Shown: positions 17,107 through 35,816 of the stretch, in pieces
Layout of the letters: the number at the start of each line of letters is the position of its first letter
How positions within the stretch are numbered: position 1 is the stretch's first letter
NCBI GenBank assembly: GCA_025062245.1
Contig: JANXAD010000016.1
Span: 1-38,646, forward strand
DNA: 38,646 nucleotides
DNA from: Thermodesulfobacteriaceae bacterium
GTDB lineage: Bacteria > Desulfobacterota > Thermodesulfobacteria > Thermodesulfobacteriales > Thermodesulfobacteriaceae
Direction: 5' to 3'
Notes under the pieces: generated by a model
What the model saw: only the letters and a program-made list of their open reading frames with translations
Told to the model about the DNA's origin: nothing
Databases searched by the model: none
Made by a program: the position numbers and the translations under genes

Positions 17107-18873
17107 ATGCACCACTTGGATCCAACCAAAATGAAAGATTGGGAAATAGCTTATGAAGCAGAAAAATTTATGAAAACCGTTTATCAGTTAGGTGACGAAT
17201 TAGGCTTAACTAAGGAGGAGCTTTTACCCTATGGTCATTATGTGGCTAAGGTAGATTATAAGAAGGTTTTGGAAAGACTAAAAGATCGTCCTAATGGAAA
17301 GTATATCGATGTTACAGCTATTACTCCTACACCTTTAGGTGAGGGTAAAACTACTACTTTAATTGGTTTAGTTGAGGGTTTAGGAAAGAGAGGAAAAAAT
17401 GTTATTGGAACCATAAGACAGCCTTCTGGTGGTCCTACCTTCAATATTAAAGGTAGTGCAGCTGGTGGTGGAATTGCTCAGGTAATTCCTTTGGATAAAT
17501 TTTCCTTAGGTCTTACAGGGGATATTAATGCTATTATGAATGCCCATAATTTAGCTATGGTAGCTTTAACATCCAGAATGCAGCATGAAGCTAATTATGA
17601 TGATGAAACCTTAGCTAAGAAAGGTTTAAGAAGATTAAATATTGATCCCAAAAGAGTTGAAATGGGATGGGTAATTGACTTTTGTGCTCAAGCTTTAAGA
17701 CATATTGTTATTGGGCTGGGTGGTAAAAACGATGGATATCCTATGGAAAGTAAATTTTTCATTGCCGTAGCTTCTGAAGTTATGGCAATACTATCAGTTG
17801 CCAGAGACTTAAAAGATTTAAGAGAAAGAATTGGAAAAATAGTGGTAGCCTTTGATAAATTTGGTAATCCTGTTACTACAGAAGACTTAGAAGTTGCCGG
17901 TGCTATGACTGCTTGGTTAGTAGATGCTATTAATCCTAATCTTATGCAGACTATTGAGGGTCAGCCAGTGTTTGTCCATGCTGGTCCTTTTGCCAATATT
18001 GCTGTAGGACAATCTTCTATTATTGCAGATTATGTGGCTTTAAAATTGGGAGACTACATAGTCACAGAATCCGGATTTGCAGCAGATATTGGTTTTGAAA
18101 AGTTCTGGAATATTAAGTGCAGACTTTCTGGATTAGTTCCTAATGTAGTGGTAGTAGTAGCCACTATCAGAGCTCTTAAGTGCCACGGTGGAGCACCTAT
18201 TCCCAGACCAGGTCAACCTATTCCTAAGGAATACTTAGAAGAAAGACTTGACTGGGTAGAAAAGGGATGTGACAATCTACTCCATTGTGTAAATATTGTT
18301 AAGAAAAGTGGAGCTATTCCTGTAGTTTGTATTAATAAGTTTTATGCCGATACTGAAAATGAAGTGAAATTGGTAAAAAAGATTTGTGAAGATGCAGGAG
18401 TGAGAGTAGCCTATTCAGATCATTGGTTAAAAGGTGGAGAGGGGGCCTTGGAACTTGCTGATGCTGTAATTGATGCCTGTGAAGAAAAGTCTGAATTTAG
18501 ATTCCTTTATGAGGTTGATGAACCTGTTAAGACCAGAATTGAAAAGATTGCTAAGGAGGTATATGGAGCAGATGGAGTGGTTTATCTTCCTGCTGCGGAG
18601 GAAAAAATTAAGATGATTGAGGCTGATCCTGATTTGAGAAAAAATCCTATTTGTATGGTAAAGACCCATCTTTCTCTTTCTGATGATCCAACCAAGAAGG
18701 GTGTGCCTAAGGGATGGACCTTAAGAGTAAGAGATGTTCTTATTTTTAGAGGTTCTGGTTTTACGGTTCCCGTTGCTGGTGATATTAGCCTTATGCCTGG
18801 AACTGCTTCAGATCCAGCCTATAGAAGAATTGATGTAGATGTGGAGACCGGCAGAGTAAAAGGATTGTTCTAA
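17107..18873 (+). CDS. fhs: Formate-tetrahydrofolate ligase
   Basis: 588 residues, slightly longer than the roughly 557 of acetogens. The enzyme uses ATP to activate formate on tetrahydrofolate, the entry of the methyl branch of the Wood-Ljungdahl pathway. The P-loop [13 protein letters not shown] is at residues 72-84. Family motifs include [33 protein letters not shown] and [14 protein letters not shown], and the C-terminus [20 protein letters not shown]. The start follows a strong AAAGGAGG. It heads the plus-strand Wood-Ljungdahl island and is closed by its own terminator, so it can be expressed apart from folD and the downstream genes. No formate dehydrogenase gene is nearby. Confidence 0.96.
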
Positions 18874-18879
18874 AGAGTA

Positions 18880-18912
18880 AAAAGCCCCTCCTTTAAGGAG
18901 GGGCTTTTTAAT
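18880..18912 (+). terminator. Rho-independent terminator after fhs
   Basis: AAAAGCCCCTCCT (18880-18892) pairs with AGGAGGGGCTTTT (18896-18908) around a three-base loop, followed by a T run. Thirteen paired bases, seven of them G-C, make this a strong terminator. Confidence 0.88.
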
Positions 18913-18966
18913 TTTTAAAAAGAGGATTTTTTTAAAAAAACAGAAAATAAAAAAGGAGGGATTGAG

Positions 18967-19869
18967 ATGTCAGCTAAAATAATAGATGGTGTAGCTATTT
19001 CTAAAGAGATTAGAGAGGGAATTAAAAAGGAGGTTCAAGAATTAAAGGAAAAGCATGGTATTACACCAGGATTAGTAACTATTTTAGTGGGAGAAAATCC
19101 GGCTTCTGTTTCTTATGTCACGGCTAAACAAAAGACAGCTCATGAACTTGGTTTTTATTCTATTCAAGAAAATTTACCTGAAAGTGTTCCAGAAGATGAA
19201 CTTTTAAAAATGATTGAAAAATATAATAATGATCCTAAGATTCATGGAATTTTAGTTCAACTTCCCCTTCCCAAACATATTGATGAAAATAAGGTTATCT
19301 ATGCTATAGATCCAAGAAAGGATGTGGATGGGTTTCATCCTGTAAATGTAGGCAAAATGGTAATTGGTCTTCCTTGCTTTTTACCTTGCACACCTTATGG
19401 AATTTTAGTTCTTTTGGATAAGTCAGGTGCTAAAGTAGATGGTGCTGAGGTAGTGGTGATTGGAAGAAGTAATATTGTAGGAAAACCAGTAGCTATTTTA
19501 CTTTTCCAGAAGAGAAAACCGGTAGGAAATGCCACAGTTACTATTTGCCATACTGCAACCAAAGATATGGCCTTTCATACTAAAAGAGCGGATATTTTAA
19601 TTGTAGCTGCAGGAAAGCCCAAAGTAGTTACAGCAGATATGGTAAAACCAGGGGTAGTAGTAATTGATGTGGGAGTAAATAGAATTGGCACTACTCCTGA
19701 AGGAAAGGCTAAACTTTGTGGAGATGTGGATTTTGATAGTGTAAAGGAAGTGGCTTCTGCGATTACTCCGGTTCCAGGTGGAGTTGGTCCTATGACTATT
19801 ACTATGCTTATGAAAAATACCTTAGAATCTGCTAAGATGTGGGCGGGGCTTCCCTCCGAAGTAGGTTAA
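18967..19869 (+). CDS. folD: Bifunctional methylene-THF dehydrogenase/methenyl-THF cyclohydrolase
   Basis: 300 residues. FolD interconverts 10-formyl-, methenyl- and methylene-tetrahydrofolate, so this one protein covers the second and third steps of the methyl branch. SYVTAKQKTAHELGF holds the catalytic Tyr and Lys (YxxxK), VQLPLPKHID is the cyclohydrolase/folate motif, and PRKDVDGFHPVNVGKM and CTPYGILVLL are conserved. The nucleotide-binding loop is VVVIGRSNIVGKPVAILL, and the C-terminus TPVPGGVGPMTITMLMKNTL is typical. An AAAGGAGGG precedes the ATG. It lies between the fhs terminator and the cooS promoter region. No separate fchA is present. Confidence 0.95.
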   Translation: MSAKIIDGVAISKEIREGIKKEVQELKEKHGITPGLVTILVGENPASVSYVTAKQKTAHELGFYSIQENLPESVPEDELLKMIEKYNNDPKIHGILVQLPLPKHIDENKVIYAIDPRKDVDGFHPVNVGKMVIGLPCFLPCTPYGILVLLDKSGAKVDGAEVVVIGRSNIVGKPVAILLFQKRKPVGNATVTICHTATKDMAFHTKRADILIVAAGKPKVVTADMVKPGVVVIDVGVNRIGTTPEGKAKLCGDVDFDSVKEVASAITPVPGGVGPMTITMLMKNTLESAKMWAGLPSEVG

Positions 19870-19970: not shown

Positions 19971-22010
19971 ATGATAGACCGTGAAGCAAGATTTGGTAGG
20001 GGGAAGCTCCCACTTCAGGATTGGGTAGCAAGTGAGCTTTATGAGAATGTACCTGAAGATTTTCTTACCATGCCTAAGAGAGTTCTTAGAAGAGGGGTTA
20101 CTCCTTGTGCTTTCGGAAAGGGTGGAACCTGTTGTAAAGTTTGTAACATGGGACCTTGTCAAGTAGTGGAGGGAATTGAAGAATTAAAGGGTATTTGTGG
20201 AGCTACGGCAGCTACTATAGTGGCCAGAAACTTTGCTAGAATGGTAGCCGCTGGAACTTCAGCCCACTCTGACCATGGAAGGCATGTGGCTCATACTTTT
20301 TATGAGGCGGTTCATGGAGAGGCACCTTTCCAGATAAAGGACAAGAGAAAGTTGAGAGTCGTTGCTCAAGCTTTTGGAGTAGATTTAAATCTTCCTGAAG
20401 ATGAAATGGCTAAGAGAGTGGCTGATGAGGCTATGAAGGCTTTTGGTCAGCAAGATGGGGAGTTAAAGTTTGCTTTAAGAGCTCCTAAAACTCTTATTGA
20501 AAAATGGAGAAGACACAGAGTTATACCCAGAGGAGTAGATAGAGAGGTAGTTGAGCTCTTACATAGAACCAGTGTAGGTGTGGACCAAGACTACAGACAT
20601 ATTCTTTTGGGAGCTGCCCGTTGTTCTTTGGCTGATGGTTGGGGTGGTTCTATGATTGCTACGGAGCTTCAAGATATTATGCTCGGGACTCCCACTCCTA
20701 TTAAAACTAAAGTAAATATAGGACTTGCTACTATTAAAAAGGATCATGTAAATGTAGTAGTTCATGGACACGATCCTACCTTAGCTGAAGCTTTAGCGGT
20801 TTGTGCCAATGATCCTGAGATTATAGCTGAGGCTAAAAAAGTAGGAGCTAAGGGGGTTAATTTAACTGGTATTTGTTGTACTGGAAATGAAGTCTTAATG
20901 AGATATGGAATTCCTGTAGCTGGAAGTTTTACTCAACAGGAGACAGCTATTGGAACAGGAGCTATAGAAGCTGTAGTAGTTGATGTCCAGTGTATTATGT
21001 TAAATATAGTAGACATAGCTAAGTTCTTCCATACTGTAGTTATTACGACCAGTGAAATAGCCAAGATGCCTGGGGCCCATCATATAGAGTTTGAAACTTC
21101 AAGAGCTTTAGATATTGCTAAGGAAATTTTGAAAATGGCTATTTCTCGTTATCCCTATAGAGATCAAAGTAAAGTTAGAATACCTGAGCGTAGTGTGGAT
21201 GTAATAGTAGGTTTTAGCCATGAGACTATTATGTATATGTTGGGTGGAAGATTTAGAGCTTCTTACAAGCCTTTAAATGAAAATGTAATTAATGGGAGAA
21301 TTTTAGGGCTTGCAGCCTTTGCTGGTTGTGATAATTATAGGGTAGGGGAATCTATCACTATTGAAGCAGCTAAGGAGCTTATTGCTAATAATGTTCTTGT
21401 CTTAGCTACAGGATGTGCAGCTGTTAGACTTGGAACAGCTGGGCTTTTGAGACCTGAAGCGGCAGAACTTGCTGGACCAGGATTAAGGGAAGTTTTAGAG
21501 GCTGTAGGATGTCCTCCAGTTCTTCACATGGGTTCTTGTGTAGATAATTCAAGAATTCTCTTAGCAGCCACTGAAATTGTAAGAACCGGAGGACTTGGAG
21601 AAGACATATTCCAAATTCCAGCAGTTGGTGCAGCCCCTGAATGGATGAGTGAAAAGGCTATCGCTATTGGAATGTATTTTGTAACTACTGGAGTACAGGT
21701 AATCTTTGGCCCAACCTTTCCTACTCTTAATAGTAAAGAGGTTTGTGACTTTCTATTTAATGAAATAGAAGGTTATTTTGGAGGAAACTGGAGAGTAGCC
21801 AGAACGGCTAATGAGTTTGCCAATCTTATGATAGATAGAATTAATTTTGGTAGAAGAGGTCTTGGAATTGATGTGCCTAAGCCAAGAATCCTTTACGATA
21901 TGGCTATGAGAAGAGCTTTAGCTGCTCCGAAGGTGGAAACTCCCCAACATGTGGTTGGATATTATGGTCCTATAGCTCTAAAAGGTAGTGTCGAAGAGAA
22001 AAGAGCCTAA
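19971..22010 (+). CDS. cooS: Carbon monoxide dehydrogenase catalytic subunit (ACS-associated)
   Basis: 679 residues, the usual size of CooS/AcsA. It reduces CO2 to CO at a Ni-Fe-S C-cluster and delivers CO to acetyl-CoA synthase. The N-terminal cysteines sit as expected: Cys46 and Cys54 for the D-cluster, Cys55, Cys58, Cys63 and Cys76 for the B-cluster (CAFGKGGTCCKVCNMGPCQ). SAHSDHGRHVAHTF carries the conserved His residues, and GICCTGNEVLMRYGIP, VVDVQCIMLNIVDIA, LAAFAGCDNYRVGES, LATGCAAVRLGTAG and MGSCVDNSRI hold C-cluster and proton-path residues. The leader GGGGTAGAGGAAATG is shared almost exactly with acsB. It is followed by a terminator. No cooC or cooF lies next to it, and acsB is 8 kb downstream behind the Hdr/Met genes. 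Confidence 0.95.
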   Translation: MIDREARFGRGKLPLQDWVASELYENVPEDFLTMPKRVLRRGVTPCAFGKGGTCCKVCNMGPCQVVEGIEELKGICGATAATIVARNFARMVAAGTSAHSDHGRHVAHTFYEAVHGEAPFQIKDKRKLRVVAQAFGVDLNLPEDEMAKRVADEAMKAFGQQDGELKFALRAPKTLIEKWRRHRVIPRGVDREVVELLHRTSVGVDQDYRHILLGAARCSLADGWGGSMIATELQDIMLGTPTPIKTKVNIGLATIKKDHVNVVVHGHDPTLAEALAVCANDPEIIAEAKKVGAKGVNLTGICCTGNEVLMRYGIPVAGSFTQQETAIGTGAIEAVVVDVQCIMLNIVDIAKFFHTVVITTSEIAKMPGAHHIEFETSRALDIAKEILKMAISRYPYRDQSKVRIPERSVDVIVGFSHETIMYMLGGRFRASYKPLNENVINGRILGLAAFAGCDNYRVGESITIEAAKELIANNVLVLATGCAAVRLGTAGLLRPEAAELAGPGLREVLEAVGCPPVLHMGSCVDNSRILLAATEIVRTGGLGEDIFQIPAVGAAPEWMSEKAIAIGMYFVTTGVQVIFGPTFPTLNSKEVCDFLFNEIEGYFGGNWRVARTANEFANLMIDRINFGRRGLGIDVPKPRILYDMAMRRALAAPKVETPQHVVGYYGPIALKGSVEEKRA

Positions 22011-22109: not shown

Positions 22110-25100
22110 ATGGGTAATGCCAAAGGTAAAGTTTTGATTTTAGGTGGTGGTATTGCAGGAATTCAATCTGCTTTAGATTTAGCAGATCTTGGGTATTATG
22201 TATATTTAGTGGAGAAGAAGGCCACCATTGGTGGGGTTATGGCTCAACTTGATAAGACTTTTCCCACCAATGACTGCAGTATATGAATTTTGGCTCCCAA
22301 GATGGTGGAGGCCGGTAGGTCTCCCAATATTGAAATTTTGACTTTAAGTGAAGTTGAAAGTATTGAGGGAGAACCTGGAAATTTTAAGGTTAAAGTTAAA
22401 ATAAATCCCCGTTATATAGATCCAGCTAAGTGTACTGCTTGTGGAGATTGTGCTAAATATTGTCCCAGATTGGCTATAGATTATTTTAATGCCAATTTAA
22501 CTTTTACTCGTTCTGCTCGTATAGATCTTCCTCAAGCAGTTCCCACTATCTATTATATAGATGCTGAGACTTGTTTACATTTAAATTATGAAACCTGCAT
22601 GCTTTGTACTAATATTTGTGGACCTAACGCTATAGATTTTTCTCAAAAGCCTGAATATAAAGAATTAGAAGTAGGAGCGATTATTATAGCTCCTGGGTTT
22701 GGTCCTGTTCCTCAAGAAGCTTTAGAAAAATTTGGTTATGGAATTTATGACGATGTGTTAACCAGTATTGAAGTTGAGCGTATGACCTGTGTTTCTGGAC
22801 CTACAGAGGGAGAGGTAATTAGACCTTCTGATTTTAAACATCCCAAAAAAATAGCCTATATTCAGTGTGTAGGTTCCCGTGATATTACTTGTGATAGAAA
22901 TTATTGTTCTTCAGTTTGTTGTATGTATGCAGTAAAAGAGGCTACCATCATAAAGGAACACGAACCAGAGGCTGAAATAACTTTATATTTTATGGATGTA
23001 AGAACTCAAGGAAAGGGCTTTGATGAGGCTTTTAGAAATTTTGTAGAAAAATATGGAATGAAAATTGTCAGAGCAAGGCCTCCTAAGGTTGAAAAGGTTG
23101 GAGAAAAGATAGCTTTAACTTATGTAGATGAAGATGGTCAAAGAAAAAGAGAGCTTTATGATATGATAGTTCTTTCGGTAGGGCTTTCACCTCCTAAGGA
23201 TGCAGAAAAGTTAGCTTCTGTTTTTGGAATAGATCTTAATGAATTCAGATTTGCTAAGACTTCAACTTTAAAACCTATTGAAACTAATCGTCCTGGCATT
23301 TATGTCATCGGAGCCTTCCAGGGGCCCAAGGATATTCCTGAAAGTGTTATGCAAGCCTCAGGTGGAGCAGCTACGGTTTCAGAAATTCTTAGAGAAGGAA
23401 GATTTAGTAGTTATATAGTAAAGGAGTATCCACCTGAAGATTTAGAACTTATGTCTGGAGAACCAAGAATTGGAGTATTTGTATGTCACTGTGGGGTAAA
23501 TATTGCTGGAGTGGTAAATGTTAAGGAATTAGTAGAATATGCTAAAACCTTACCTAATGTGGTGCATGCTGAGAATTTGACCTATGCTTGTGCTCAAGAT
23601 GCTTTAGAACATATTAAGAAGAAAATAAAAGAAGTTAAGCTTAATCGTGTAGTAGTTTCTGCTTGTTCTCCCAGAACCCATGAACCTCTTTTTCAAGATA
23701 CTGTCCGTGAGGTAGGTCTAAATCTTGCTTTATTTGAAATGGCAAATATTAGAGACCAGTGCACTTGGGTTCATGCAGATAATCCTGAGAAGGCTGCCGA
23801 GAAGGCTAAGGATTTAATTAGAATGGGAGTTGCTAAAGCTAGAAGACTTAAACCCCTTGTTCTTCAAAGAGTATCTGTTACTCCCACGGCTTTAGTAATA
23901 GGAGGTGGAGTAGCAGGAATGGTTTCAGCTTTATCTATTGCAGAGCAAGGTTTTCAAGTCTATCTTGTGGAGAAGGAGCCTGAATTAGGAGGAAGTTTGA
24001 AAAGGGTTAAGTATTTAATTTCAGGAGAGAATCCTCAAGAGTTTTTAAAAGACCTTATTTCAAAGGTTGAGAATCATCCCAATATAAAGATTTATAAGGG
24101 AGCTCAAATTGAGAACATATCGGGATATATAGGAAATTTCACTACCACAGTAAGAATAGGAGATACTTCTGAAGTGGTAAATCATGGGGTAGTGGTGGTA
24201 GCTACGGGTGGAAAAGAATATAGACCATCAAAGTATCCTTTAGATGGAAAGAAGGTTATTACTCAGCTTGAGTTAGAGGAAAGATTATTGGAAAATAAAG
24301 ATTTAGATAAGATTAAAAAAGTAGTCATGATTCAGTGTGCAGGTTCAAGGGGCGAAGAGTTAGGATATTGTAGTAAAGTTTGTTGTGTTCAAGCTTTGAA
24401 GAATGCTTTAAAGATTAAGGAAATAAAACCTGAAGCTGAGGTGTTTATTCTTTATATGGATTTAAGGGCCTATGGTTTTTATGAGAAAAATTATTTTGAA
24501 GCCAGAAAAAAAGGAATTAAGTTTATTAGGTTTACCAATGAAAGGAGACCTCAAGTAGTAGAGGGAGGAGTTAAAGTTTATGACATGATAGCTGGGGAGG
24601 AACTTTTTATTCCTGCAGATTTAGTGGTGCTTTCTGTTGGAATTGTGCCTTCTGAAGACCAAGAAGCGGTAAATATGCTTAGAATTCCCTGTGGTGCTGA
24701 AGATGGTTTTCTTATGGAAGCCCATGTAAAATTAAGACCGGTAGATACAGCTACAGATGGAGTTTTTATTTGTGGACTAGCCCATGGGCCAAAACCTTTA
24801 GAAGAAGTTATATCTCAAGCTAAGGCTGCCGCAGGAAGAGCTTCTATTCCTCTAGCTAAGAAGGAGGTAGAGGTTTCACCTATTGTGGCTGCAGTGGAGG
24901 AAGCAAAGTGTATTGGATGTGGTATTTGTGTAGAACTTTGTCCCTTTACAGCTATTGAATTAATTAAAGTAGATAAGAAAAGAAAGGCTAAGGTTATAAC
25001 TGCAGCTTGTAAGGCTTGTGGTATTTGTGCTTCCCATTGTCCAGTTTTTGCCATAGATTTAGGTGGATACACTAAAGAGGCAATTTTGGAGCAGTTGGCA

Positions 25101-25163
25101 GGTTTTAAGAAGGAACCTATGGAGAAGGTAGTAGAGGAGGAGAAAGTAGAGGTAGGTAATTAA
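22110..25163 (+). CDS. hdrA: Selenocysteine-containing HdrA, two-flavin long form
   Basis: The 1017-residue product needs the in-frame UGA at 22284-22286 (residue 59) to be read as selenocysteine. It falls in [15 protein letters not shown], where other HdrA proteins have Cys (DCxxCILAPKM). HdrA is the flavoprotein that splits electron pairs in Hdr complexes. Half one: FAD loop [20 protein letters not shown], the Sec motif, a ferredoxin-type cluster ([12 protein letters not shown], from residue 108) and QCVGSRD...YCSSVCC. Half two: a second FAD loop [17 protein letters not shown] (about 595), [18 protein letters not shown], and two C-terminal 4Fe-4S motifs ([12 protein letters not shown] at 934, [12 protein letters not shown]). 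Half two lacks the Sec motif. The ATG at 22110 is preferred over 22101, which touches the GGGGG ribosome binding site. First gene of the Hdr/Met operon. Confidence 0.92.
22287..22313 (+). promoter_or_regulatory. SECIS-like hairpin for hdrA
   Basis: Immediately downstream of the UGA, GGCTCC (22292-22297) can pair with GGAGGCC (22307-22313, one bulged G). The nine-base apical loop CAAGATGGT has GGU 18-20 bases after the UGA, the placement expected for a bacterial SECIS bound by SelB. Found by eye, not by folding. Confidence 0.6.
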
Positions 25164-25195
25164 GAGAATTTTAAAAAGAGAAGGGGGGAGAGGAG

Positions 25196-25906
25196 ATGAG
25201 TTTTGATCCCAGAATATTAGCTTTTATGTGTCATTGGTGAGCTTATACAGCGGCTGACGGAGCCGGGGTTGCTCGTCAAAGTTATCCACCCTATTTAAGG
25301 GTAGTAAGAGTAATGTGTACCGGGAGAGTGGATCCTTTATTTGTGATGACTGCTTTTAACAATGGGGCAGATGGGGTCTTAGTTGCGGGATGTAGGCTCG
25401 GGGAGTGTAAATATTCAGAGGGTAATTTAGAGGCTTTAATTATGGGTGAAGCAGTAAAAAATATCTTAAGGCTTATTGGAATGGAGGAGAAAAGATTGAG
25501 ACTGGATTGGGTTTCCTCTTCTGAGGCTTCAAGGATTGTTGAAATTATTAAGGACTTTTCTTATACTTTACAAGAAATTGGACCTTTAGGAGTAAAGGAA
25601 GGTTGGAGTGAGGAGGATAAAAAATTTTATTTAGAAAGCGCTGTAGCTCTTTGTAATAATATGCAATTTAGGTCTGCCTATGGAAATTTAGCTCGGGAAA
25701 TAAAAAAGTTGGGAGATTTTTCCTTAGAGGTTATCACTAAAAAGGTAGAGGAAAAGCTCTTGCCCTCTATTAAAACCAGACTTTATGAGATTGAGATTAA
25801 GGAATTGGTGAAAGAAGGTCCTAAGAGTTTAGATTATATAATTGCTAAAACCAAAGGAGATCCAGTTGAAATAGAAAAAATCTTGTCTAAAATAATAAAA
25901 ACTTAA
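25196..25906 (+). CDS. mvhD: Selenocysteine-containing MvhD/VhuD-type electron transfer protein
   Basis: 236 residues if the in-frame UGA at 25238-25240 is read as selenocysteine 15. MSFDPRILAFMCHWU-AYTAADGAGVARQ matches the MvhD N-terminus CxWCSYxGADxAG, with Sec in place of the second Cys. The rest is canonical: VMCTGRVDPLFVMTAFNNGA, then VAGCRLGECKYSEGNLEA, giving Cys12, Sec15, Cys41, Cys66 and Cys71 as probable iron-sulfur ligands. MvhD carries a 2Fe-2S cluster that links an electron donor to HdrA. A C-terminal extension (about 140-236) is longer than in the usual 140-residue MvhD and ends in a helix-turn-helix-like segment; its role is unknown. Translation from an ATG at 25313 would lose the N-terminal motif. 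The ribosome binding site is GGGGGGAGAGGAG. A 32-base gap separates it from hdrA. Confidence 0.88.
25251..25265 (+). promoter_or_regulatory. SECIS-like hairpin for mvhD
   Basis: CGGCT (25251-25255) pairs perfectly with AGCCG (25261-25265) around the loop GACGG, 11 to 25 bases after the UGA. The stem may extend through CAG (25248-25250) and TTG (25269-25271) with a GGG bulge. The G-rich loop fits a SelB-recognised SECIS. Confidence 0.55.
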
Positions 25907-25917
25907 GGAGGGCTACT

Positions 25918-26481
25918 TTGAGTGTAGAGAGCCTAACTGAAAAACTTTTAGAGAAAGTTCAAGAACCTAAATTAAAAGCTTTAGTTTCAGGTCAGGTTGA
26001 AAGTTTTGATCAGTGTTTTAGATGTGGTGCTTGTTCAGGAATTTGTCCGGTTAAAAAAACTACTCAAGTTTTTGATCCTCGCAAAATTATACATCTTTTA
26101 CTTTTGGGTTTTAAGGAAAAAATATTAAATGAAGTTTTATGGTATTGCTCCCAGTGTGGAAGTTGTGTTCCAGTTTGTCCTATGGATGTGAAACCTAAGG
26201 AAGTTATTGCGGCTTTAAGGAAATTTATGTTAGATGAGGGTTTAATTACCTTAGATGATCTTTTTGAGTTGGGAAAATTTGCTAGAGTTATCAGGGATAA
26301 GTGTATTGTTTGTTTAACCTGTGTTAGACTTTGTCCTTTTTCAGCTCCAGTAATAAATCTTGAAGGGTATGCGGAAATTCAGGTAGATAAATGTAAGGCT
26401 TGTGGAATTTGTGTCCAGGGTTGTCCGGCCCGAGCAATAGAATTAAGAAAAAATCCTGAATATATGGAGGTTAGGTACTAA
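25918..26481 (+). CDS. hdrC: HdrC-like protein with four 4Fe-4S motifs
   Basis: 187 residues from a TTG start set by AAGGAGGG. The first half is HdrC-like: CFRCGACSGICP (Cys33, 36, 39, 43) and CSQCGSCVPVCP (Cys77, 80, 83, 87), with the linking helix RKIIHLLLLGFKE seen in HdrC. The second half adds a ferredoxin module: CIVCLTCVRLCP (Cys129-139) and CKACGICVQGCP (Cys159-169). Ordinary HdrC ends soon after the second motif, so this is an extended form that can pass electrons through four clusters. HdrB, the usual partner with the CCG domains, is not encoded here. It lies 11 bases after mvhD, and its TAA overlaps the ATG of the next gene by one base. Confidence 0.85.
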   Translation: MSVESLTEKLLEKVQEPKLKALVSGQVESFDQCFRCGACSGICPVKKTTQVFDPRKIIHLLLLGFKEKILNEVLWYCSQCGSCVPVCPMDVKPKEVIAALRKFMLDEGLITLDDLFELGKFARVIRDKCIVCLTCVRLCPFSAPVINLEGYAEIQVDKCKACGICVQGCPARAIELRKNPEYMEVRY

Positions 26482-26879
26482 TGGAAGAAAAGGGATTTAA
26501 ATTAGGAATCCTTTGTTGTAATTATACTAATTTAGCAGAAAAGGAGGATTTTCAAGATATTTTAGGTGAAGTTATTATGAAAAGATATCCCTGTTCTGGG
26601 CACATTGAGATTACAGATATTTTGAGGACCTTTAGAGAGGGGGCAGAAGCAGTTTTAGTTGCTGGTTGTCAAAAAGGGACTTGTCATAATGAGAATGGAA
26701 GTTCAAGGGCTGAGCATCAAGTGGAAGGAGCTCAGAAACTTATTGAAGAAATAGGGCTTCCTAAGGAATTTTTAAAATTTGTTTATGTAGAAAGATTAAA
26801 TACGGGAGATTTTATAGATAAGGTTAAAGGTTTTTATAAGGAAGTATTAAATAAACTTTTAAAGGAGAAGAGGGTATGA
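26481..26879 (+). CDS. mvhD: Second MvhD-family protein (no selenocysteine)
   Basis: 132 residues, normal length for MvhD. ILCCNYTNLAEKEDF replaces the CxWC motif with an adjacent Cys pair. RYPCSGHIEITDILRTFREG and VAGCQKGTCHNENGSSRAEH keep the other probable 2Fe-2S ligands. In Hdr complexes MvhD joins the electron donor to HdrA; this divergent copy sits between hdrC and metV and is coupled to both, overlapping hdrC by one base and metV by four (ATGA). The order suggests it may connect the HdrC end of the complex to MetV, but that is inference. Both MvhD paralogues are in one operon, so they are probably not interchangeable. Confidence 0.8.
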   Translation: MEEKGFKLGILCCNYTNLAEKEDFQDILGEVIMKRYPCSGHIEITDILRTFREGAEAVLVAGCQKGTCHNENGSSRAEHQVEGAQKLIEEIGLPKEFLKFVYVERLNTGDFIDKVKGFYKEVLNKLLKEKRV

Positions 26880-27544
26880 TAATTGCTGAAAGAAGGCCCT
26901 TACCTAAGATTTTAAAAAATATTGAACCATATAGAAAAATTTTAGTATTAGGTTGTAGAGGATGTGTGGCTATTTGTTCTGCAGGAGGGGATAGAGAGGT
27001 AGCTATTTTAGCAGAGGCTATAAGACTTGCTCGTGAGAGAGCAGGAAATCCTGTAGAGGTTTTAGAGGAAACCTTTATTAGGCAGTGTGATCCTGAATAT
27101 TTGACAACCTTAGGAGAATTAGGAAAACAGGTAGATGCTATTGTAAGTTTAGCCTGTGGGGTAGGGGTAAACTTTATTGCAGACCTTTATCCAGAGGTTA
27201 GAATATTTCCGGGGGTGGATACCACCTTTTATGGAGCTAATGTGGCCTTAGGGGAATGGATAGAAAAGTGTAGAGGTTGTGGAGAGTGTATCATTGATAT
27301 GACCGGGGGGCTTTGTCCTATAGCAAGATGTGCTAAGGTTTTACTTAATGGTCCCTGTGGTGGTTCCCAAAATGGTAGATGTGAAGTAAGAGAAGATATG
27401 CCCTGTGTTTGGCATTTAATTGTAGAAAGGCTTACTAAAAGGGGTGAACTTGATAGACTTATGGAAATTTGGGGACCTAAGGATTGGAGAGCCTCTGGAG
27501 GAGAAGGTTTAAGAGTTAGAGAAAGATCAGATTTAAAGGTTTAA
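26876..27544 (+). CDS. metV: MetV, partner subunit of methylene-THF reductase
   Basis: 222 residues, the normal length. MetV forms a complex with MetF in acetogens and carries iron-sulfur/zinc sites. The N-terminal part has VLGCRGCVAICSAGGDREVA and FIRQCDPEYLTTL; the C-terminal part has the dense cysteine cluster KCRGCGECIIDMTGGLCPIA then RCAKVLLNGPCGGSQNGRCE and PCVWHL. GPCGGSQNGRCEV is the family hallmark. It starts inside the end of the second mvhD (ATGA overlap) and lies 25 bases before the metF-acsD gene. With MetF it reduces methylene-THF to methyl-THF, here presumably with electrons from HdrA/HdrC/MvhD, as proposed for the Moorella MetFV-Hdr-Mvh gene cluster. Confidence 0.88.
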   Translation: MIIAERRPLPKILKNIEPYRKILVLGCRGCVAICSAGGDREVAILAEAIRLARERAGNPVEVLEETFIRQCDPEYLTTLGELGKQVDAIVSLACGVGVNFIADLYPEVRIFPGVDTTFYGANVALGEWIEKCRGCGECIIDMTGGLCPIARCAKVLLNGPCGGSQNGRCEVREDMPCVWHLIVERLTKRGELDRLMEIWGPKDWRASGGEGLRVRERSDLKV

Positions 27545-27569: not shown

Positions 27570-30023
27570 GTGGAGTACAGAAGCCATTTAGAGAGATTAT
27601 TAAAAGAAGGTCAATTTGTAATTACCAGTGAAATAGGTCCTCCCAGAAATGCAGATGGGGAGGTAATAAGAAAAAAAGCTAAAATGCTAAAGGGTTATGT
27701 AGATGCAGTCAATATTACTGACTGTCAAACAGCAGTAGTTAGGCTTTCAAGTTTAGCCTCTGCTATTATTATTCTTTCTGAAGGTTTAGAACCTGTTATG
27801 CAGATGACTTGTAGAGATAGAAATAGAATTGGAATTCAGTCAGATTTATTAGGAGCCTATGCTCTTGGAATTAGAAATCTTCTTTGTCTAACAGGAGATC
27901 ATCATAAATTTGGGAATCACCCTATGGCTAAACCTGTTTTTGACTTAGATTCTATTTCTCTTTTGAGCATGGTGAAGGGTTTGGCTGAGGGAAGATTTCA
28001 GAATGGAGAGCCGATGAAGGGAGTGAGACCCAATTTTTTTAGGGGAGCAGCAGCTAATCCCTTTGCAGATCCCTTTGAATTCAGAGTAAAAAGATTGGCC
28101 AAAAAAGCTAAAGCAGGAGCTGAATTTATTCAAACCCAAATTATTTATAATGTTGATAAATTTAGAAAATTTATGGAAATGGCAAGAGATGAGGGGCTTT
28201 TAGAAAATATATACATCTTAGCAGGAATTACACCTCCTAAATCCTTAGGAATGGCTAAGCATATGAAATATTATGTTCCTGGATTAGATGTCCCAGATGA
28301 GGTTATTCAAAGGTTGGAATCTGCTAAGGATAAACAAGAAGAGGGAATTAACATAGCGGTGGATATTATTAATCAGGTAAGAGAGATTCCTGGAGTAAGA
28401 GGACTTCATATTATGGCTATTGAATGGGAGGAAGCTGTTCCTGAAATTGTAAAGAGAGCAGGGCTTCTTCCTCGTCCAGAAGCTCCAGAAGTTATTCCTC
28501 CCTTTGTAGTAGAAAAGATAGTAGAAAAACCAGTAGAAGTGATAGTTGAAAAGGTGGTAGAAAAGGTAGTAGAAAAGCCAGTGGAAGTAGTAGTAGAAAA
28601 AGTGATAGAAAAACCAGTGGAGGTTATTATGGAAGAAAGGGGATTGCGTTCTGAACTTCCTTTGAATGTAATTATAGATGTTTTAGCTAATATGAGAGCA
28701 AGTTTGGAGAGTTTAAAGTCTGGTATTTCTTTCTTGACCGAAAGTTTAGATAAGTTAGAAACTACGGTACTTGGCAAACCAGCTGAAAGACCAAGAGTTA
28801 TAATAGAAAAGCCTAAGGTTGAAGTAGCACCACCTCCTAAGGTTGAGGTAGTTCCTGAAGTAAAACCGGTTGAAGAAGTAAAGCCTGTAGTGGTTGAAGA
28901 AGTAAAAGTTGAAGAAAAGGTAGAAGTTGCTCCGGAGGTAAAGCCTGTAGTTGAGGAGGCAAAGCCGGTTGAGGAGGTAAAACCAGTAGTAGTTGAAGAA
29001 GTAAAACCACCTCCGGTTGAGAAGGTTGAAATTAAAGTAGGTGAATTTTCTGGAATATATAGACCTCTTTCTGAAAGGGCTAAAGGAATTAGCGAAGACC
29101 TTTATGTTGAAAAATCTCCAGATATGATAAGAGAAATAACTATCGGAAGGGGCGATAAAGTATTAAAAATTGGTGGAAGTAATGTTTTAAATTTCCATTT
29201 ATTTGAAGGAGAGATGAGAAATGGTATCAAGATTGCAATGGAAGTTCTTGATATTGAGCCTAAGGAATGGCCAGAGAGTTTAAAGAAGTACTTTGCAGAT
29301 GTTTATCATGATCCAGTCCTTTGGGCTAAGAAGTGTGTGGAGGAATATGGTGCAGAGGCTATTTGTTTATATTTAATGGGAACAGATCCTAATCTTTTGA
29401 ATTTAGATGCCAATCATGCTAAGGAAGTGGTTAAGAGAGTTGCTAATGCTATTGAAGTTCCTTTAATTATCTGGGGTTCTGGTAATGCAGAAAAAGATAT
29501 TGAAGTTTTAAGAGAGGTAGCGGAAGTGGTAGCTGAAAAGGGTGCTTTGATTGGACCTATAGTGGAAGCAAATCATAGAACCTTAGCAGCCGTAGCCTTA
29601 GGCTATAACCTTCCTGTAGTTGCTTCTACTCCTATTGATGTAAACTTAGCTAAACAACTTAATATTTTATTAGAAGGAATGGGAATTCCTTTAGACAGGA
29701 TCGTTATGGATCCCTCTATTGGGGCTTTGGGTTATGGAATTGAATATACCTATTCAGTTATGGAAAGAATAAAGTTGGCAGCTCTTTATGCTCAAGATAC
29801 TCAACTCCAAGTGCCCTTTATTTGTATGCTTGGAAAGGAGGTATGGAAGACCAAAGAAGCTAACTTACCTACAGATGAAACTTTTGGAGAGCAAGAAATG
29901 AGAGGAGTTATAATGGAAGCTTTAACAGCGGTAGCCTTAGCAGTAGCAGGGGGAGATCTGTTAGTGATGAGACATCCTAAGGCAGTACAACTTTGTAAAC
30001 AACTTTTTAAAGCTTTAAGTTAA
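27570..30023 (+). CDS. MetF-AcsD fusion: methylene-THF reductase joined to the CFeSP small subunit
   Basis: 817 residues, GTG start after GGAGGGGGG. Residues 1 to about 300 are MetF: FVITSEIGPPRNADGEVI, NLLCLTGDHHKFGNHP, GAEFIQTQIIYNVDKF and NIYILAGITPPKSLGMAKHM, a TIM barrel that reduces methylene-THF. Residues about 303-495 are a linker: VEKPVEV repeats, one helical segment (about 360-397, LNVIIDVLANMRASLESLKS and following), then Pro/Lys/Glu/Val repeats. Residues about 496-817 are AcsD/CdhD: VLNFHLFEGEMRNG, DPSIGALGYGIEYTYSVMER and LLVMRHPKAV, the corrinoid iron-sulfur protein small subunit. A single uninterrupted frame covers everything, with no start-and-ribosome-site pair at the AcsD border. 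Normally the two are separate genes. The fusion would hold the methyl-THF producer next to the methyl acceptor. No AcsD-only gene is seen. Confidence 0.92.
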   Translation: MEYRSHLERLLKEGQFVITSEIGPPRNADGEVIRKKAKMLKGYVDAVNITDCQTAVVRLSSLASAIIILSEGLEPVMQMTCRDRNRIGIQSDLLGAYALGIRNLLCLTGDHHKFGNHPMAKPVFDLDSISLLSMVKGLAEGRFQNGEPMKGVRPNFFRGAAANPFADPFEFRVKRLAKKAKAGAEFIQTQIIYNVDKFRKFMEMARDEGLLENIYILAGITPPKSLGMAKHMKYYVPGLDVPDEVIQRLESAKDKQEEGINIAVDIINQVREIPGVRGLHIMAIEWEEAVPEIVKRAGLLPRPEAPEVIPPFVVEKIVEKPVEVIVEKVVEKVVEKPVEVVVEKVIEKPVEVIMEERGLRSELPLNVIIDVLANMRASLESLKSGISFLTESLDKLETTVLGKPAERPRVIIEKPKVEVAPPPKVEVVPEVKPVEEVKPVVVEEVKVEEKVEVAPEVKPVVEEAKPVEEVKPVVVEEVKPPPVEKVEIKVGEFSGIYRPLSERAKGISEDLYVEKSPDMIREITIGRGDKVLKIGGSNVLNFHLFEGEMRNGIKIAMEVLDIEPKEWPESLKKYFADVYHDPVLWAKKCVEEYGAEAICLYLMGTDPNLLNLDANHAKEVVKRVANAIEVPLIIWGSGNAEKDIEVLREVAEVVAEKGALIGPIVEANHRTLAAVALGYNLPVVASTPIDVNLAKQLNILLEGMGIPLDRIVMDPSIGALGYGIEYTYSVMERIKLAALYAQDTQLQVPFICMLGKEVWKTKEANLPTDETFGEQEMRGVIMEALTAVALAVAGGDLLVMRHPKAVQLCKQLFKALS
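28509..29040 (+). repeat. Repetitive linker coding sequence in metF-acsD
   Basis: Two blocks (28509-28640 and about 28800-29040) of imperfect 21- to 30-base repeats encode VEKPVEV- and VKPVEEVKPV-type sequence. They flank a non-repetitive helical part. The reverse strand contains a spurious Ser/Thr/Phe-rich open frame caused by the repeats. Confidence 0.8.
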
Positions 30024-30063: not shown

Positions 30064-32304
30064 ATGTCTAAAATCATTTGTTCTGCAGCTATTAGAGGTG
30101 CTCACAAAATTGTGAACATGGCTTGGGAAAAGTATGAAGAGGCGGTAAAAAAGTATGGTAAGGAGCAAGAAGTAGGTTTTCCTAATACGGCTTATTATTT
30201 ACCAATTATTTATGCTATTTTAGGCTATCCAGTTAAGAGACTTGGGGATTGTGGGGAGGTATTAGAGGAAGCTAAAAAACTTCTTCCACCTGTTCCTGAA
30301 AAGGAAGTTTGGACACCCTATTTAGGTCCAGCTTTAGATGCTGGAATGGCAACCTATTTTGCAGAAGAGGTTATAGAAGCTATTAGATATTTAGAGGATC
30401 CTGACTTTTATACTAAAACTGAGGATCCTCTTAATGGTAACTATTGGTTAGGTGCGGCAGACGATGTTATTTTTAGAAAAAGAGGAGTAGAGTTTGTGGA
30501 TGGAACAGCTCCTGGGTTTGCAGCTATTTTAGGAGCTCCCATTGCTGAAACCAGAGAAAAAGCTAGAGAATTAGCTGTAAAATTAGCAGATGAATTGAGA
30601 GAAAAAACTCTTTATGTATTTATGCATGATCAGACTAATGGTGTTTATATGCCTGAACTTTTAAGAGAAGCAGGTGTTCAGCTTGGTTGGAATGTTCGTT
30701 TAATTCCCTTTGGGCCTACCTATACTTCAGTAGTATTTGCTATAGGATTTGCATGTAGAGTAGCTATGGCTTTTGGTGGAATCAAACCTGGAGACTATAT
30801 GGGGAACCTTCTTTACAACAGAGATAGAACCTATGCTTTTGCTATGCCCTTTGGTCCCGTTTCAGATGAATGGTATGCCAATGCAGCTGGGGCTATTAAT
30901 TGGGGATTCCCAGCTATTTCAGATTGGGATATCCCAGAGATAAAACCCTATGGAATTTGTATGTATGAACATGTGGTCTCTAAGATTCCTTACGAAGAAA
31001 TTGTAGATCGTGCAGTAGAAGTAAGAGGTCTTAAGGTTACCGCAGTGAAGTTAGATATTCCGGTCTCTTATGCTCCAGCCTTTGAAGGTGAAAGAATAAG
31101 AAAGGAAGATCTTTATTTAGAATGTGGTGGTGGTAGAACCATAGGAGTTGAGCTTTTACTTTCTAAACCTTTAGATGAAGTAGAAGATGGTAAAATTGAA
31201 GTAATTGGTCCTGAAATTAATGAACTTCCTAATCTTGGAATTAAGGGACCACCCTATAGATTACCCTTAGCTATTTTAGTCAAAGTTGCCGGAGCCAGAA
31301 TGCAAGAAGATTTTGAGCCTATTCTTGAAAGACAATTCCACCATCTAATTAACTATGCTCAAGGTATTATGCACGTGGGACAGAGAAATATTATGTGGAT
31401 AAGAATTGGACAGCAAGCCGCTGAAAAGGGATTCCTTTTTAAGCATATTGGGAGAATTCTTTATGCTAAATTAAGACAGGAATTTAGTGCTATAGTAGAT
31501 AAATGTGAAGTAACTATTTATACTGATGAAGAGAAAGCTAAAGAAGTATTAGAAATGGCTAAATCTGTTTATGCTAAAAGAGATGCCCGTTTAGCTGGAT
31601 TAACTGATGAGGATGTTGATACTTATTACACTTGCACTCTATGTCAGAGTTTTGCTCCCAGCCATGTATGTATCGTTTCTCCTGAAAGAATGGGGCTTTG
31701 TGGGGCTTATAGCTGGCTTGATGCCAGAGCTTATTATGAGCTTAATCCTGCCGGTCCTAATCAACCCATTGTAAAGGGAGATTTATTGGATGAAAAACAT
31801 GGTAAATTTGTGGGAACTGAAGAAGCAGTTAGAAAATTCTCTGGTGGCAAGGTGCAAAGTGTTTCTCTCTATAGTATTTTAGTAGATCCTATGACTTCTT
31901 GCGGATGTTTTGAGTGTATAGCAGCTATTTTACCTTCGGTAAATGGAATCATGATAGTTCATAGAGACTATACTGGAATGACCCCTACGGGAATGAAATT
32001 TACTACCATGGCTGGAATGGTAGGTGGAGGTCAAGTAACTCCAGGTTTTGTGGGTATTGCTAAGCTTTATATAGCCTCCCGTAAATTTTTAAAAGCTGAG
32101 GGAGGCCTTTTAAGAGTAGTTTGGATGCCTAAGTCTCTTAAAGAAGAGTTAAGGGAGAAGTTAGAAGAGAGAGGTAAAGAATTGGGAGTTCCAGATTTAT
32201 TAGATAAAATAGCTGATGAAACTACAGCTAATACTGAAGAGGAATTAGCAGAATGGATTAAAAAGGTTAATCATCCTGTTTTAAATCTACCTCCTTTAAT
32301 GTAA
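30064..32304 (+). CDS. acsB: Acetyl-CoA synthase, bacterial type
   Basis: 746 residues, matching the full-length bacterial enzyme with its N-terminal CODH-interacting domain (the archaeal form lacks it). It joins CO, the methyl group from the corrinoid protein and CoA into acetyl-CoA at the Ni-Ni-4Fe4S A-cluster. A-cluster cysteines are Cys524, Cys527, Cys536, Cys546, Cys613 and Cys615; the spacing (3, 9, 10, 67, 2) is the same as in the Moorella enzyme. Motifs include FMHDQTNGVYMPELLREAG, MYEHVVSKIPYEEIV, CTLCQSFAPSHVC and GMTPTGMKFTTMAGMVGGGQ. The leader is nearly identical to that of cooS. A terminator-like hairpin covers the stop codon, so downstream acsC and acsE may be made in smaller amounts. 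Confidence 0.96.
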   Translation: MSKIICSAAIRGAHKIVNMAWEKYEEAVKKYGKEQEVGFPNTAYYLPIIYAILGYPVKRLGDCGEVLEEAKKLLPPVPEKEVWTPYLGPALDAGMATYFAEEVIEAIRYLEDPDFYTKTEDPLNGNYWLGAADDVIFRKRGVEFVDGTAPGFAAILGAPIAETREKARELAVKLADELREKTLYVFMHDQTNGVYMPELLREAGVQLGWNVRLIPFGPTYTSVVFAIGFACRVAMAFGGIKPGDYMGNLLYNRDRTYAFAMPFGPVSDEWYANAAGAINWGFPAISDWDIPEIKPYGICMYEHVVSKIPYEEIVDRAVEVRGLKVTAVKLDIPVSYAPAFEGERIRKEDLYLECGGGRTIGVELLLSKPLDEVEDGKIEVIGPEINELPNLGIKGPPYRLPLAILVKVAGARMQEDFEPILERQFHHLINYAQGIMHVGQRNIMWIRIGQQAAEKGFLFKHIGRILYAKLRQEFSAIVDKCEVTIYTDEEKAKEVLEMAKSVYAKRDARLAGLTDEDVDTYYTCTLCQSFAPSHVCIVSPERMGLCGAYSWLDARAYYELNPAGPNQPIVKGDLLDEKHGKFVGTEEAVRKFSGGKVQSVSLYSILVDPMTSCGCFECIAAILPSVNGIMIVHRDYTGMTPTGMKFTTMAGMVGGGQVTPGFVGIAKLYIASRKFLKAEGGLLRVVWMPKSLKEELREKLEERGKELGVPDLLDKIADETTANTEEELAEWIKKVNHPVLNLPPLM

Positions 32305-32340: not shown

Positions 32341-33702
32341 ATGGGACTTACAGGAATTCAAATAATGCAAAAGCTACCTAAGACTAATTGTGGGGATTGT
32401 GGTTTCCCAACCTGTTTAGCCTTTGCTATGAAGGTAGCCACAGGAGAGGTAGAAATAGGTAAATGTCCTCATGTAGATCCAGCTGTTAAAGAAGAGATTG
32501 AAGAGGCTTCTGCTCCTCCTATCCGAACAGTAAAATTAGGTGGAGGAGAAAATCTTTATAAGTTAGGAGGAGAAACAGTTCTTTTTAGACATGACAAGAG
32601 ATTTGAAAATCCTACTCTTATAGGAACTTTTATTGCCACCGATATGAGCGAAACTGAAATTGATAGAAGAATAGGTCTTTATAAAAAGTTTCAGTGGGAA
32701 AGAGTGGGGGTTAAACTATTTCCTGATATTATCTTAATTGAAGACAAAGGAGATGGGGCAAAGTTCTTAGATTTGGTTAAAAAAGTTAGAAGTGAAATTC
32801 CATGGGCAGCTATTATTTTAAGTTCCTCTAATGTAGATACTTTAAAGTCTGCCGTCTCTGAGTGTGGTGAGTTTAAACCTCTTATTTACGGAGCTAATGC
32901 TTCTAATTTAGAAGCTTTTTGTAATTTAGCTTCAGAAACTAAGACACCCTTGACGGTAGTGGGTGATAGTTTAGGCGAGGTAGCTAAACTTTCTGAAGAG
33001 GCTTTAAAAAAGGGATTGAAAGACTTAGTTTTAGATACCGGTGCTAAGAGTGTTAAAGAACTTTTAGAAGATTTAGTAATTGTTCGGAGGTCTTCTATCA
33101 AGAAGAGATTTAGACCTCTTGGCTTTCCGGTCTTAACCTTTACTTATAGATATGCCTCTTCTTTAGATTTAGAAGCTGTATTAGCTGGATTATTAATTGC
33201 CAAATACGCCAGTGTAATTATTCTTTCCGATTTAACGGCAGATATCCTTTATAATCTTATGGTAGAAAAGATGAATATTTATACTGATCCTCAAAAACCT
33301 TTGGTAGTTGAAGAAGGTATTTATCCTGTTAACGGACCCGATGAAAACGCTTTAGTGGCTATTACTTGTAATTTTGCCTTAACTTATTTTATAGTAAACG
33401 GTGAAATTGAGGGTAGTAGAGTTCCTACCTGGCTTTTAATAAAGAATACCGATGGACTTTCGGTTCTTACAGCTTGGGCAGCTGGCAAATTTACTGCTGA
33501 TGGAATAGCGGACTTTGTTAAAAAGTGTGGTATTTCAGAGAAGGTAAAACATAGAAAACTTATCATTCCTGGATATTTAGCAGGAATGAAGGGAGAGTTA
33601 GAAGATGAACTTTCTGGTTGGGAGATTATAATAGGACCGAGAGAGGCCAGTGGAATTCCTGCCTTTTTCAGAAATTTGATAAAGGAAATGGCTGCAGCTT
33701 AA
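32341..33702 (+). CDS. acsC: Corrinoid iron-sulfur protein large subunit
   Basis: 453 residues. The N-terminal 4Fe-4S domain has Cys17, Cys20, Cys25 and Cys42 (TNCGDCGFPTCLAFAM and GKCPH), the cluster that reactivates the cobalt to Co(I). The middle is a TIM barrel (IDRRIGLYKKFQWERVGVKL onward), and the C-terminal part (from about residue 320, AITCNFALTYFIVNGEIE, KNTDGLSVLTAWAAGKFTAD) is the corrinoid-binding Rossmann-like domain. Together with the AcsD part of the fusion protein it forms the methyl carrier between AcsE and AcsB. GGAGG precedes the ATG. It lies behind the acsB attenuator and 34 bases before acsE. Confidence 0.95.
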   Translation: MGLTGIQIMQKLPKTNCGDCGFPTCLAFAMKVATGEVEIGKCPHVDPAVKEEIEEASAPPIRTVKLGGGENLYKLGGETVLFRHDKRFENPTLIGTFIATDMSETEIDRRIGLYKKFQWERVGVKLFPDIILIEDKGDGAKFLDLVKKVRSEIPWAAIILSSSNVDTLKSAVSECGEFKPLIYGANASNLEAFCNLASETKTPLTVVGDSLGEVAKLSEEALKKGLKDLVLDTGAKSVKELLEDLVIVRRSSIKKRFRPLGFPVLTFTYRYASSLDLEAVLAGLLIAKYASVIILSDLTADILYNLMVEKMNIYTDPQKPLVVEEGIYPVNGPDENALVAITCNFALTYFIVNGEIEGSRVPTWLLIKNTDGLSVLTAWAAGKFTADGIADFVKKCGISEKVKHRKLIIPGYLAGMKGELEDELSGWEIIIGPREASGIPAFFRNLIKEMAAA

Positions 33703-33736: not shown

Positions 33737-34627
33737 ATGAGCCAGACTGTAATTTGTATTGCAGAAAGTATTAACATAATGTCTAAAAAAATTGGAACAG
33801 CAATGAAGCAAAGAGATCCTGGTCCTATTCAGGAAATGGCTATAGAGGAAACAAAACTGGGAGCTGATTATTTAGATCTAAATATTGGTCCTGCTAAAAA
33901 AGATGGTCCTGAGTTAGCACCTTGGATTGTTAAGGTGGTAGAAGAAGTAGTGGACACTCCCATCTCCTTAGACACTACCAATCCAGATGCTATGATTCCT
34001 GGGATTAGGGCTTCTAAAAATCCCAAGAAAGCTCTTTTAAATTCTATTTCCTTAGAAAGAGTAGAAAAATTGGGTCCTTTTGCTGCGGAGGTAGGTTGTG
34101 AGACCGTAGCTCTTCTTTGGGGACCTCAAGGTCTTCCAAGGGATGCTAATGAAAGAGCTTCTATTGCTGTAGATTTAATTATGAAACTTAATGAATATGG
34201 AATTCCTAATGAAAAAATTTGGGTAGATCCTATTGTTACTCCTATTACTCTTGGAGCTCAACAGATCTTAGAACTTCTTACTTTCTTTTCTATGCTTCAA
34301 GATATAGCTCCTGGTGCTAAAAGCACTGTAGGTCTTTCTAATGTTTCTAATGGTGTAAGACATGAACTAAGACCCTATCTTAACCGAGTTATGCTTATGA
34401 TGCTTATGAAATATAATGTTTATTCAGCAATTGTTGATGTTTATGATCAAGAATTAGTAGAAATTGCCAAGGGGAAACATCCTGATTGGGTAGCCTTAAC
34501 CCATAGAATTATGGATGGAGATGAACCAGATCCTAAAACCCTTTCTCCTAAGGAATTAGAAATATATAAAACTGTAAGAGTTTTAATGGGTAAAACCATT
34601 TTCTCTGAATCTTGGTTACAAATTTAA
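33737..34627 (+). CDS. acsE: Methyl-THF:corrinoid iron-sulfur protein methyltransferase
   Basis: 296 residues, longer than the 262 of the Moorella enzyme because of a C-terminal extension. It moves the methyl group from methyl-THF to the cobalt of the AcsC-AcsD protein. It is a pterin-binding TIM barrel: ICIAESINIMSKKIGTAM, GADYLDLNIGPAKKDGPEL, TPISLDTTNPDAMIPGI, WVDPIVTPITLGAQQILELL and TVGLSNVSNGVRHELRPYLN, with the Asp and Asn residues that contact the pterin. The gene has an AGGAGG ribosome binding site and ends at a strong terminator, closing the Wood-Ljungdahl island. Its substrate comes from MetF, which here is fused to the subunit that AcsE methylates. Confidence 0.93.
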   Translation: MSQTVICIAESINIMSKKIGTAMKQRDPGPIQEMAIEETKLGADYLDLNIGPAKKDGPELAPWIVKVVEEVVDTPISLDTTNPDAMIPGIRASKNPKKALLNSISLERVEKLGPFAAEVGCETVALLWGPQGLPRDANERASIAVDLIMKLNEYGIPNEKIWVDPIVTPITLGAQQILELLTFFSMLQDIAPGAKSTVGLSNVSNGVRHELRPYLNRVMLMMLMKYNVYSAIVDVYDQELVEIAKGKHPDWVALTHRIMDGDEPDPKTLSPKELEIYKTVRVLMGKTIFSESWLQI

Positions 34628-35797: not shown

Positions 35798-35816
35798 AGA
35801 TTTTTAAGGAATGGGT

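Follow-up and report, generated by a model that had tools for sequence, protein, structure and literature searches.

Whether the enzymes of the Wood-Ljungdahl pathway in bacteria are loose or form an assembly is an open question, and it is raised directly by one gene of a Thermodesulfobacteriaceae bacterium, in which methylene-THF reductase (MetF) and the small subunit of the corrinoid protein CFeSP (AcsD) share a single reading frame. Is this fusion real, how old is it, and what does the gene make? The window referred to below is the whole stretch of 38,646 nucleotides that was analysed; its features are listed in Table 1.

One frame and two complete domains

A preliminary description of the locus had read one uninterrupted frame of 817 codons, and this is confirmed. 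The encoded protein has a predicted mass of 90.6 kDa, calculated from its sequence, and the GTG start is preceded by a strong Shine-Dalgarno (SD) sequence (GAGGAGGGGGG, -12.5 kcal/mol). Codon-position GC in the linker between the domains is that of a coding frame, and stops number 40 and 25 in the other two frames of the linker. The same frame recurs in dozens of independently assembled genomes, isolates included, which excludes a missed stop or frameshift; named genomes from an independent collection, such as Thermosulfurimonas dismutans S95 and Thermodesulfobacterium hveragerdense, have it as well.

The two domains had also been called complete, a claim that Pfam, AlphaFold2 and Foldseek together bear out. 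Residues 7-298 match the MTHFR family PF02219 (E 1e-43, 149.9 bits against a Pfam cut-off of 24), and the best PDB relatives of the N-terminal half are MTHFRs. Alignment to human MTHFR places E21, D110 and Q190 at the catalytic Glu, Asp and Gln (E28, D120 and Q183 in E. coli), and all three are invariant across 39 fusions. The bifunctional homocysteine S-methyltransferase-MTHFR model PRK08645 is matched by its MTHFR part alone (229 bits against a cut-off of 453), and by this test the fusion has no homocysteine methyltransferase domain. Residues 522-763 match CdhD (PF03599; E 3e-43, 148 bits by Pfam) without the FeS domain of AcsC. The NCBIfam model for subunit delta, NF003376, is passed with 374 bits against a cut-off of 280, and NF040759 stays under its own cut-off. 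CFeSP small subunits are the best PDB relatives of the C-terminal half (2h9a_B, E 8e-79). AlphaFold2 predicts two confident barrels, the AcsD half agreeing with 2h9a_B at a TM-score of 0.94 (Foldseek) and the MetF half with MTHFRs.

The genes of Table 1 make up a nearly complete Wood-Ljungdahl cluster, all on one strand, with the order MetV-[MetF-AcsD]-AcsB-AcsC-AcsE around the fusion. MetV is encoded next to MetF, as in MetFV-type MTHFRs, and no HdrB-like gene was seen in the window cluster. The same genome has one more MetF homologue, on a different contig (545 aa; L002:1477-3111, contig C23 of G000), fused to a MetV-like C-terminal domain. The window also encodes a 583-aa protein with a YcaO domain followed by TPR repeats (35811-37562) and a 737-aa protein that has an AccA-like carboxyltransferase domain and, towards its C-terminus, a long part that no family matches with confidence (9089-11302).

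Table 1. Features of the window, in order of position
Feature	Position	Strand	Basis or remark
Formate-THF ligase (FTHFS) and FolD, methyl branch	17107..19869	+	PF01268, PF00763/PF02882
CO dehydrogenase (CODH; AcsA/CooS type)	19971..22010	+	PF03063; without N-terminal island
HdrA-like flavoprotein, MvhD, ferredoxin/HdrC-like, MvhD	22290..26879	+	Electron-transfer genes 5' of metV
MetV, partner of MetF	26876..27544	+	PF12225
MetF-linker-AcsD fusion gene	27570..30023	+	Single open frame, 817 aa, GTG start, TAA stop
MetF (methylene-THF reductase) domain	27570..28478	+	Residues 1-303; PF02219, human MTHFR alignment
Linker	28479..29114	+	Residues 304-515; V/E/K/P-rich, predicted disordered save for the island
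Putative internal Shine-Dalgarno sequence, GGAGG	28619..28623	+	-10.5 kcal/mol duplex with anti-SD; conserved in 11/11 window-type genes
Putative internal start, ATG, codon 354	28629..28631	+	In frame, 5 nt after GGAGG, just before the island
Helical island	28647..28793	+	Profile match E 6e-21; single 37-residue helix, 365-401, in AlphaFold2 model
AcsD (CFeSP small subunit) domain	29115..30020	+	Residues 516-817; PF03599, NF003376, Foldseek
AcsB, acetyl-CoA synthase	30064..32304	+	NF040764
AcsC, CFeSP large subunit	32341..33702	+	NF003195; 2.3 kb downstream of fusion
AcsE, methyl-THF:CFeSP methyltransferase	33737..34627	+	PF00809; position after AcsC; NF005719/NF040758 below cut-offs

Age and spread of the fusion

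Related genomes do share the fusion, as had been suspected. Of 395 sampled Thermodesulfobacteriota genomes, at least 40, from 14 families, encode MetF and AcsD in a single frame, which is 722-1174 aa long. Profiles of the helical island in the linker find about 160 species, nearly all with fusion-length frames or shorter ones seemingly cut by contig ends, a count that rests on island match and frame length, with both domains checked in some of the frames. In the AcsD tree, 57 fused AcsD sequences and two natural splits form one clade on a long branch (SH-aLRT 100). Two changes explain this tree: the fusion arose once and was split once later, and multiple origins are unneeded. The MetF tree is compatible, a branch with SH-aLRT 90 setting 57 unfused sequences apart. 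Three unfused rows fall within its fused group (L039, L043 and L052); each reaches a contig end, and they are probably truncated fusions, two of which (L039 and L052) show island sequence. Judged from these trees and counts, the fusion is ancient and widespread and not an oddity of one genome. It probably came from adjacent genes, since MetF and AcsD adjoin each other in the unfused genomes G351 and G370, where the gene order is the same.

In two genomes of the window's own genus (G100 and G345) the fusion has been undone. A stop directly follows MetF, and AcsD has its own ATG (MQNEKELL...) where the linker island begins, at a position equivalent to the putative internal start of the window. 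Since such fission is tolerated, the tether would not be essential everywhere.

The linker, its island and other fusions

The linker had been described as repetitive, about 190 residues long and holding a helical island. The island stands, and the length has to be corrected to 212 residues. In the AlphaFold2 model pLDDT falls below 50 on either side of the island helix (residues 313-363 and 402-486). Among the fusions linker length ranges from 110 to about 470 aa, and the sequence changes greatly while the frame is kept. There are two island types, one of the Thermodesulfobacteriaceae and one common to Desulfobulbia-like and long-linker families, with weak resemblance between them. Long linkers also contain a coiled coil and TPR motifs, which, together with the island, suggest that in many families the linker does more than keep two domains apart. 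In one such protein and others like it (L143:6109-9249; residues ~310-745) a coiled coil, an island hairpin, TPRs and a conserved LPPCPxxLTxEEWxxKWVIR motif were noted; the AlphaFold model of this protein, built from 10 sequences, is poor in the AcsD half and usable for the coiled coil, the helical hairpin and the TPR region.

The island is nearly private to this gene in the genomes searched, a split sister clade being the exception. In the order, 30 fused genomes have an island, and in each of them its profile matches the fusion once. Each genome of the split clade (G100, G345, G406 and G409) has two matches, one to AcsD and one to an extension at the N-terminus of CODH. Beyond the fusion, AcsD and the split-clade CODH, the searched genomes gave no match save a marginal one in a 46-aa frame of G128. 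Fusions without an island occur only in a T. hveragerdense-like clade with a short linker (G028, G065 and G227). Tested members of this clade, G407 included, are without AcsA-type CODH: the two complete genomes have just a partial CODH homologue of 474-493 aa, and the other two a distant CODH (42-43%). The 474-493 aa protein, part CODH-like with a ferredoxin C-terminus, replaces CODH and HdrA in the cluster (L114:10009-11487, L115:9946-11367, L116:4531-5964 and L051:5529-6950). The presence of the island on CODH in the split clade and its absence where AcsA-type CODH is absent suggest, on few independent events, that its partner is CODH or the CODH/ACS core, and its occurrence on both AcsD and CODH in the split clade points to a docking helix.

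Other subunits of the pathway are joined as well. In G026 (L190:5315-8683, 1123 aa) and G102 (L191:5925-9374, 1150 aa), CODH follows the AcsD C-terminus by way of a Pro/Ala-rich linker with a helical segment; in L191, GGAGG lies shortly before an in-frame ATG that opens this segment. AcsC-AcsE fusions of 776-817 aa are found in relatives of the window's genus, two in the split clade (L112:2461-4863 and L113:2631-4958) and one in G180 (L117:12111-14561), which retains MetF-AcsD. Judged by frame length, AcsC and AcsE are also fused in G409 and G406, for a total of five genomes, three of them seen in full. In eight other families, AcsD of ~520-545 aa (L182-L189) has a C-terminal Ala/Lys/Glu tail of ~200 residues that ends in a short conserved segment, and most of these genes adjoin a CODH gene with an N-terminal extension. 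Both kinds of fusion and the tailed AcsD argue that subunits of this pathway were tied together more than once.

A probable second product from one frame

In most cases the linker carries an in-frame start codon with an SD sequence shortly ahead of the island. In the window, translation from this putative internal start would give an island-AcsD protein of 464 aa and 51 kDa (28629-30023). All 11 distinct window-type genes (5 fetched after the pattern was noticed; a duplicate was removed) have GGAG 5-10 nt before an ATG that lies 5-9 codons before the island, and the residues at this site differ among them (PVEVIM, PLEVEM, PWEEEM, PLEGEM and LEGEEEM). In the Desulfobulbia type, the ATG itself opens the island (MNEKERQ...) and follows Gly-Glu. 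For this Gly, at -4 from the ATG, all 41 of 41 distinct genes use GGA (18 of them were added once the pattern had been seen), whereas gene-wide GGA stands at 13% and GGC is the dominant Gly codon. This count is not a probability because the sequences are related, and the other Gly columns of the same genes are the fair control for it. The first 21 genes have 44 invariant Gly columns, of which the -4 column alone has one codon throughout; the next reaches 85%. The spacing from SD to ATG is kept in both island types. A conserved putative ribosome-binding site with an in-frame start is present in two lineages and not in the Thermodesulfatator type, whose linkers have no internal ATG and no strong GTG. 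In the long-linker type, in-frame ATGs ~50 codons before the island often have GGAGG, inconsistently. For individual genes, synonymous-codon shuffles of SD energy were not significant (p 0.02-0.67), owing to the Glu-rich linker; these energy-based shuffles were judged too weak, and codon-column conservation was used instead.

The main rival to an internal start is a pause site: the gene would make one protein, its linker a tether only, and the SD-like sequence would slow the ribosome between the domains or be a by-product of Glu-rich coding. Glu-rich linkers do make GAG and GGAG runs common, and both the shuffles and the Thermodesulfatator-type fusions sit well with this explanation. However, it does not account for a GGA fixed where GGC dominates, for a spacing to an in-frame ATG that is kept in two island types, or for split AcsD genes that begin at the same position, and we consider it doubtful, if deserving of serious attention. 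It seems probable that the gene makes island-AcsD as a second product in two lineages, including the window type. Given an internal start, the single protein of about 90 kDa expected in the preliminary description may be only part of the output.

A proposed tether between reductase and corrinoid protein

Taken as a whole, the evidence is best explained by a tethered two-enzyme protein with a docking helix and, in several lineages, a second product, a reading to which we assign a probability of roughly 0.6. The corrinoid protein has to shuttle between AcsE and AcsB. In a recent cryo-EM study, CFeSP was modelled docking on ACS in an extended state (PMC12289521). In the fusion, the MetF barrel, with MetV and the HdrA/MvhD electron-transfer proteins, would produce methyl-THF, and a mostly disordered arm of ~210 residues with one helix would join it to the AcsD barrel, which with AcsC would form the corrinoid protein and accept the methyl group via AcsE. 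The arm would hold the reductase beside the corrinoid protein and still let AcsCD swing from AcsE to AcsB and back. The helix would serve as a docking module, either for self-association or for the CODH/ACS core. The arm would also contain, in several lineages and in that of the window among them, an internal ribosome-binding site that yields helix-arm-AcsD and so allows AcsCD to be made in excess over MetF. Methyl-THF production is likely to be tethered to methyl acceptance, as follows from the sequence if the full chain exists, and a raised local concentration of methyl-THF is plausible. As a more tentative suggestion, the full-length protein and helix-arm-AcsD may bind each other or the CODH/ACS core through the helix that they have in common, and so set the stoichiometry of a Wood-Ljungdahl assembly. 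If so, the methyl-branch reductase and the carbonyl-branch enzymes would belong to one flexible complex in many Desulfobacterota autotrophs.

It is also conceivable that the chain is a polyprotein cut in its disordered linker, or a fusion with no role, so that MetF and AcsD act separately as in other bacteria. The split clade retains the pathway and linkers drift freely in sequence and length, as this would allow, but the fused frame has been kept over 14 or more families while the linkers changed greatly, and the linker retains a folded island, in some families along with a coiled coil and TPRs; we find this explanation unlikely. Substrate channelling, in which methyl-THF would pass directly from MetF to AcsE/AcsCD inside the tethered assembly, has a similarly low probability in our estimate. 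MetF and AcsD flank the AcsE step and AcsE is fused to AcsC in five related genomes, yet a long disordered arm raises local concentration and forms no tunnel. The flexible tether of the preliminary description fits the disordered linker and the gene order; AcsE, which it had placed in the same assembly, is a separate gene in the window. An assembly or frameshift artefact is refuted by the frame kept across dozens of independent assemblies and isolates.

A fusion kept in so many families, beside independent AcsD-CODH and AcsC-AcsE fusions, indicates that selection repeatedly ties subunits of this pathway together, and the fusion is present in cultivable species in which assembly can be tested. 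The conserved internal start, if true, would bring dual translation, unusually, into core carbon fixation and would caution against reading one gene as one protein; a second, AcsD-only start, if used, would also ease fission. No enzyme of this form had been known to the authors of the preliminary description, and among openly licensed papers we found none that describes the fused architecture, its island or an internal start, although an earlier description is possible. The word 'fusion' is absent from a 2026 study of this pathway in Desulfobacterota (PMC12827605). In the genome paper of T. dismutans, TDIS_1006, which from gene order we infer to be the fusion, appears solely as methylene-THF reductase (PMC4911364). 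Search-based annotation can hide the fusion in this way. Both domains are well known; their fused architecture, the island and the internal start are apparently new.

Comparison with known systems

In enzymes of the dihydrolipoamide acyltransferase type, long arms rich in Pro, Ala and charged residues join folded domains and let a carrier reach several active sites. The arm of the window has no sequence relation to these and joins a reductase to a corrinoid-protein subunit. CFeSP small subunits of known structure (2h9a, 4djd and 9fzy) resemble the AcsD half closely, being complete barrels that are 39-44% identical with TM-scores of 0.89-0.94, but the window AcsD differs in having an N-terminal arm, an island, MetF and a probable short form. 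In acetogens, MetF and MetV form a heterodimeric reductase, which works with HdrABC-MvhD in Moorella (PMC8515935, PMC5861303). The window system is like acetogen MetFV, which occurs with or without HdrABC-MvhD, in that MetV is encoded next door, and its upstream HdrA and MvhD genes recall the Moorella complex. However, the MetF of the window bears AcsD on a long arm, and no HdrB-like gene was seen in its cluster. Finally, Cas11b (PMC11899642) and RpnS (PMC10327210) arise from an internal in-frame start that gives a C-terminal product from one frame, as proposed here. In the window, by contrast, the start is predicted only, the gene belongs to central metabolism, and the short form would be a complete subunit with a docking helix.
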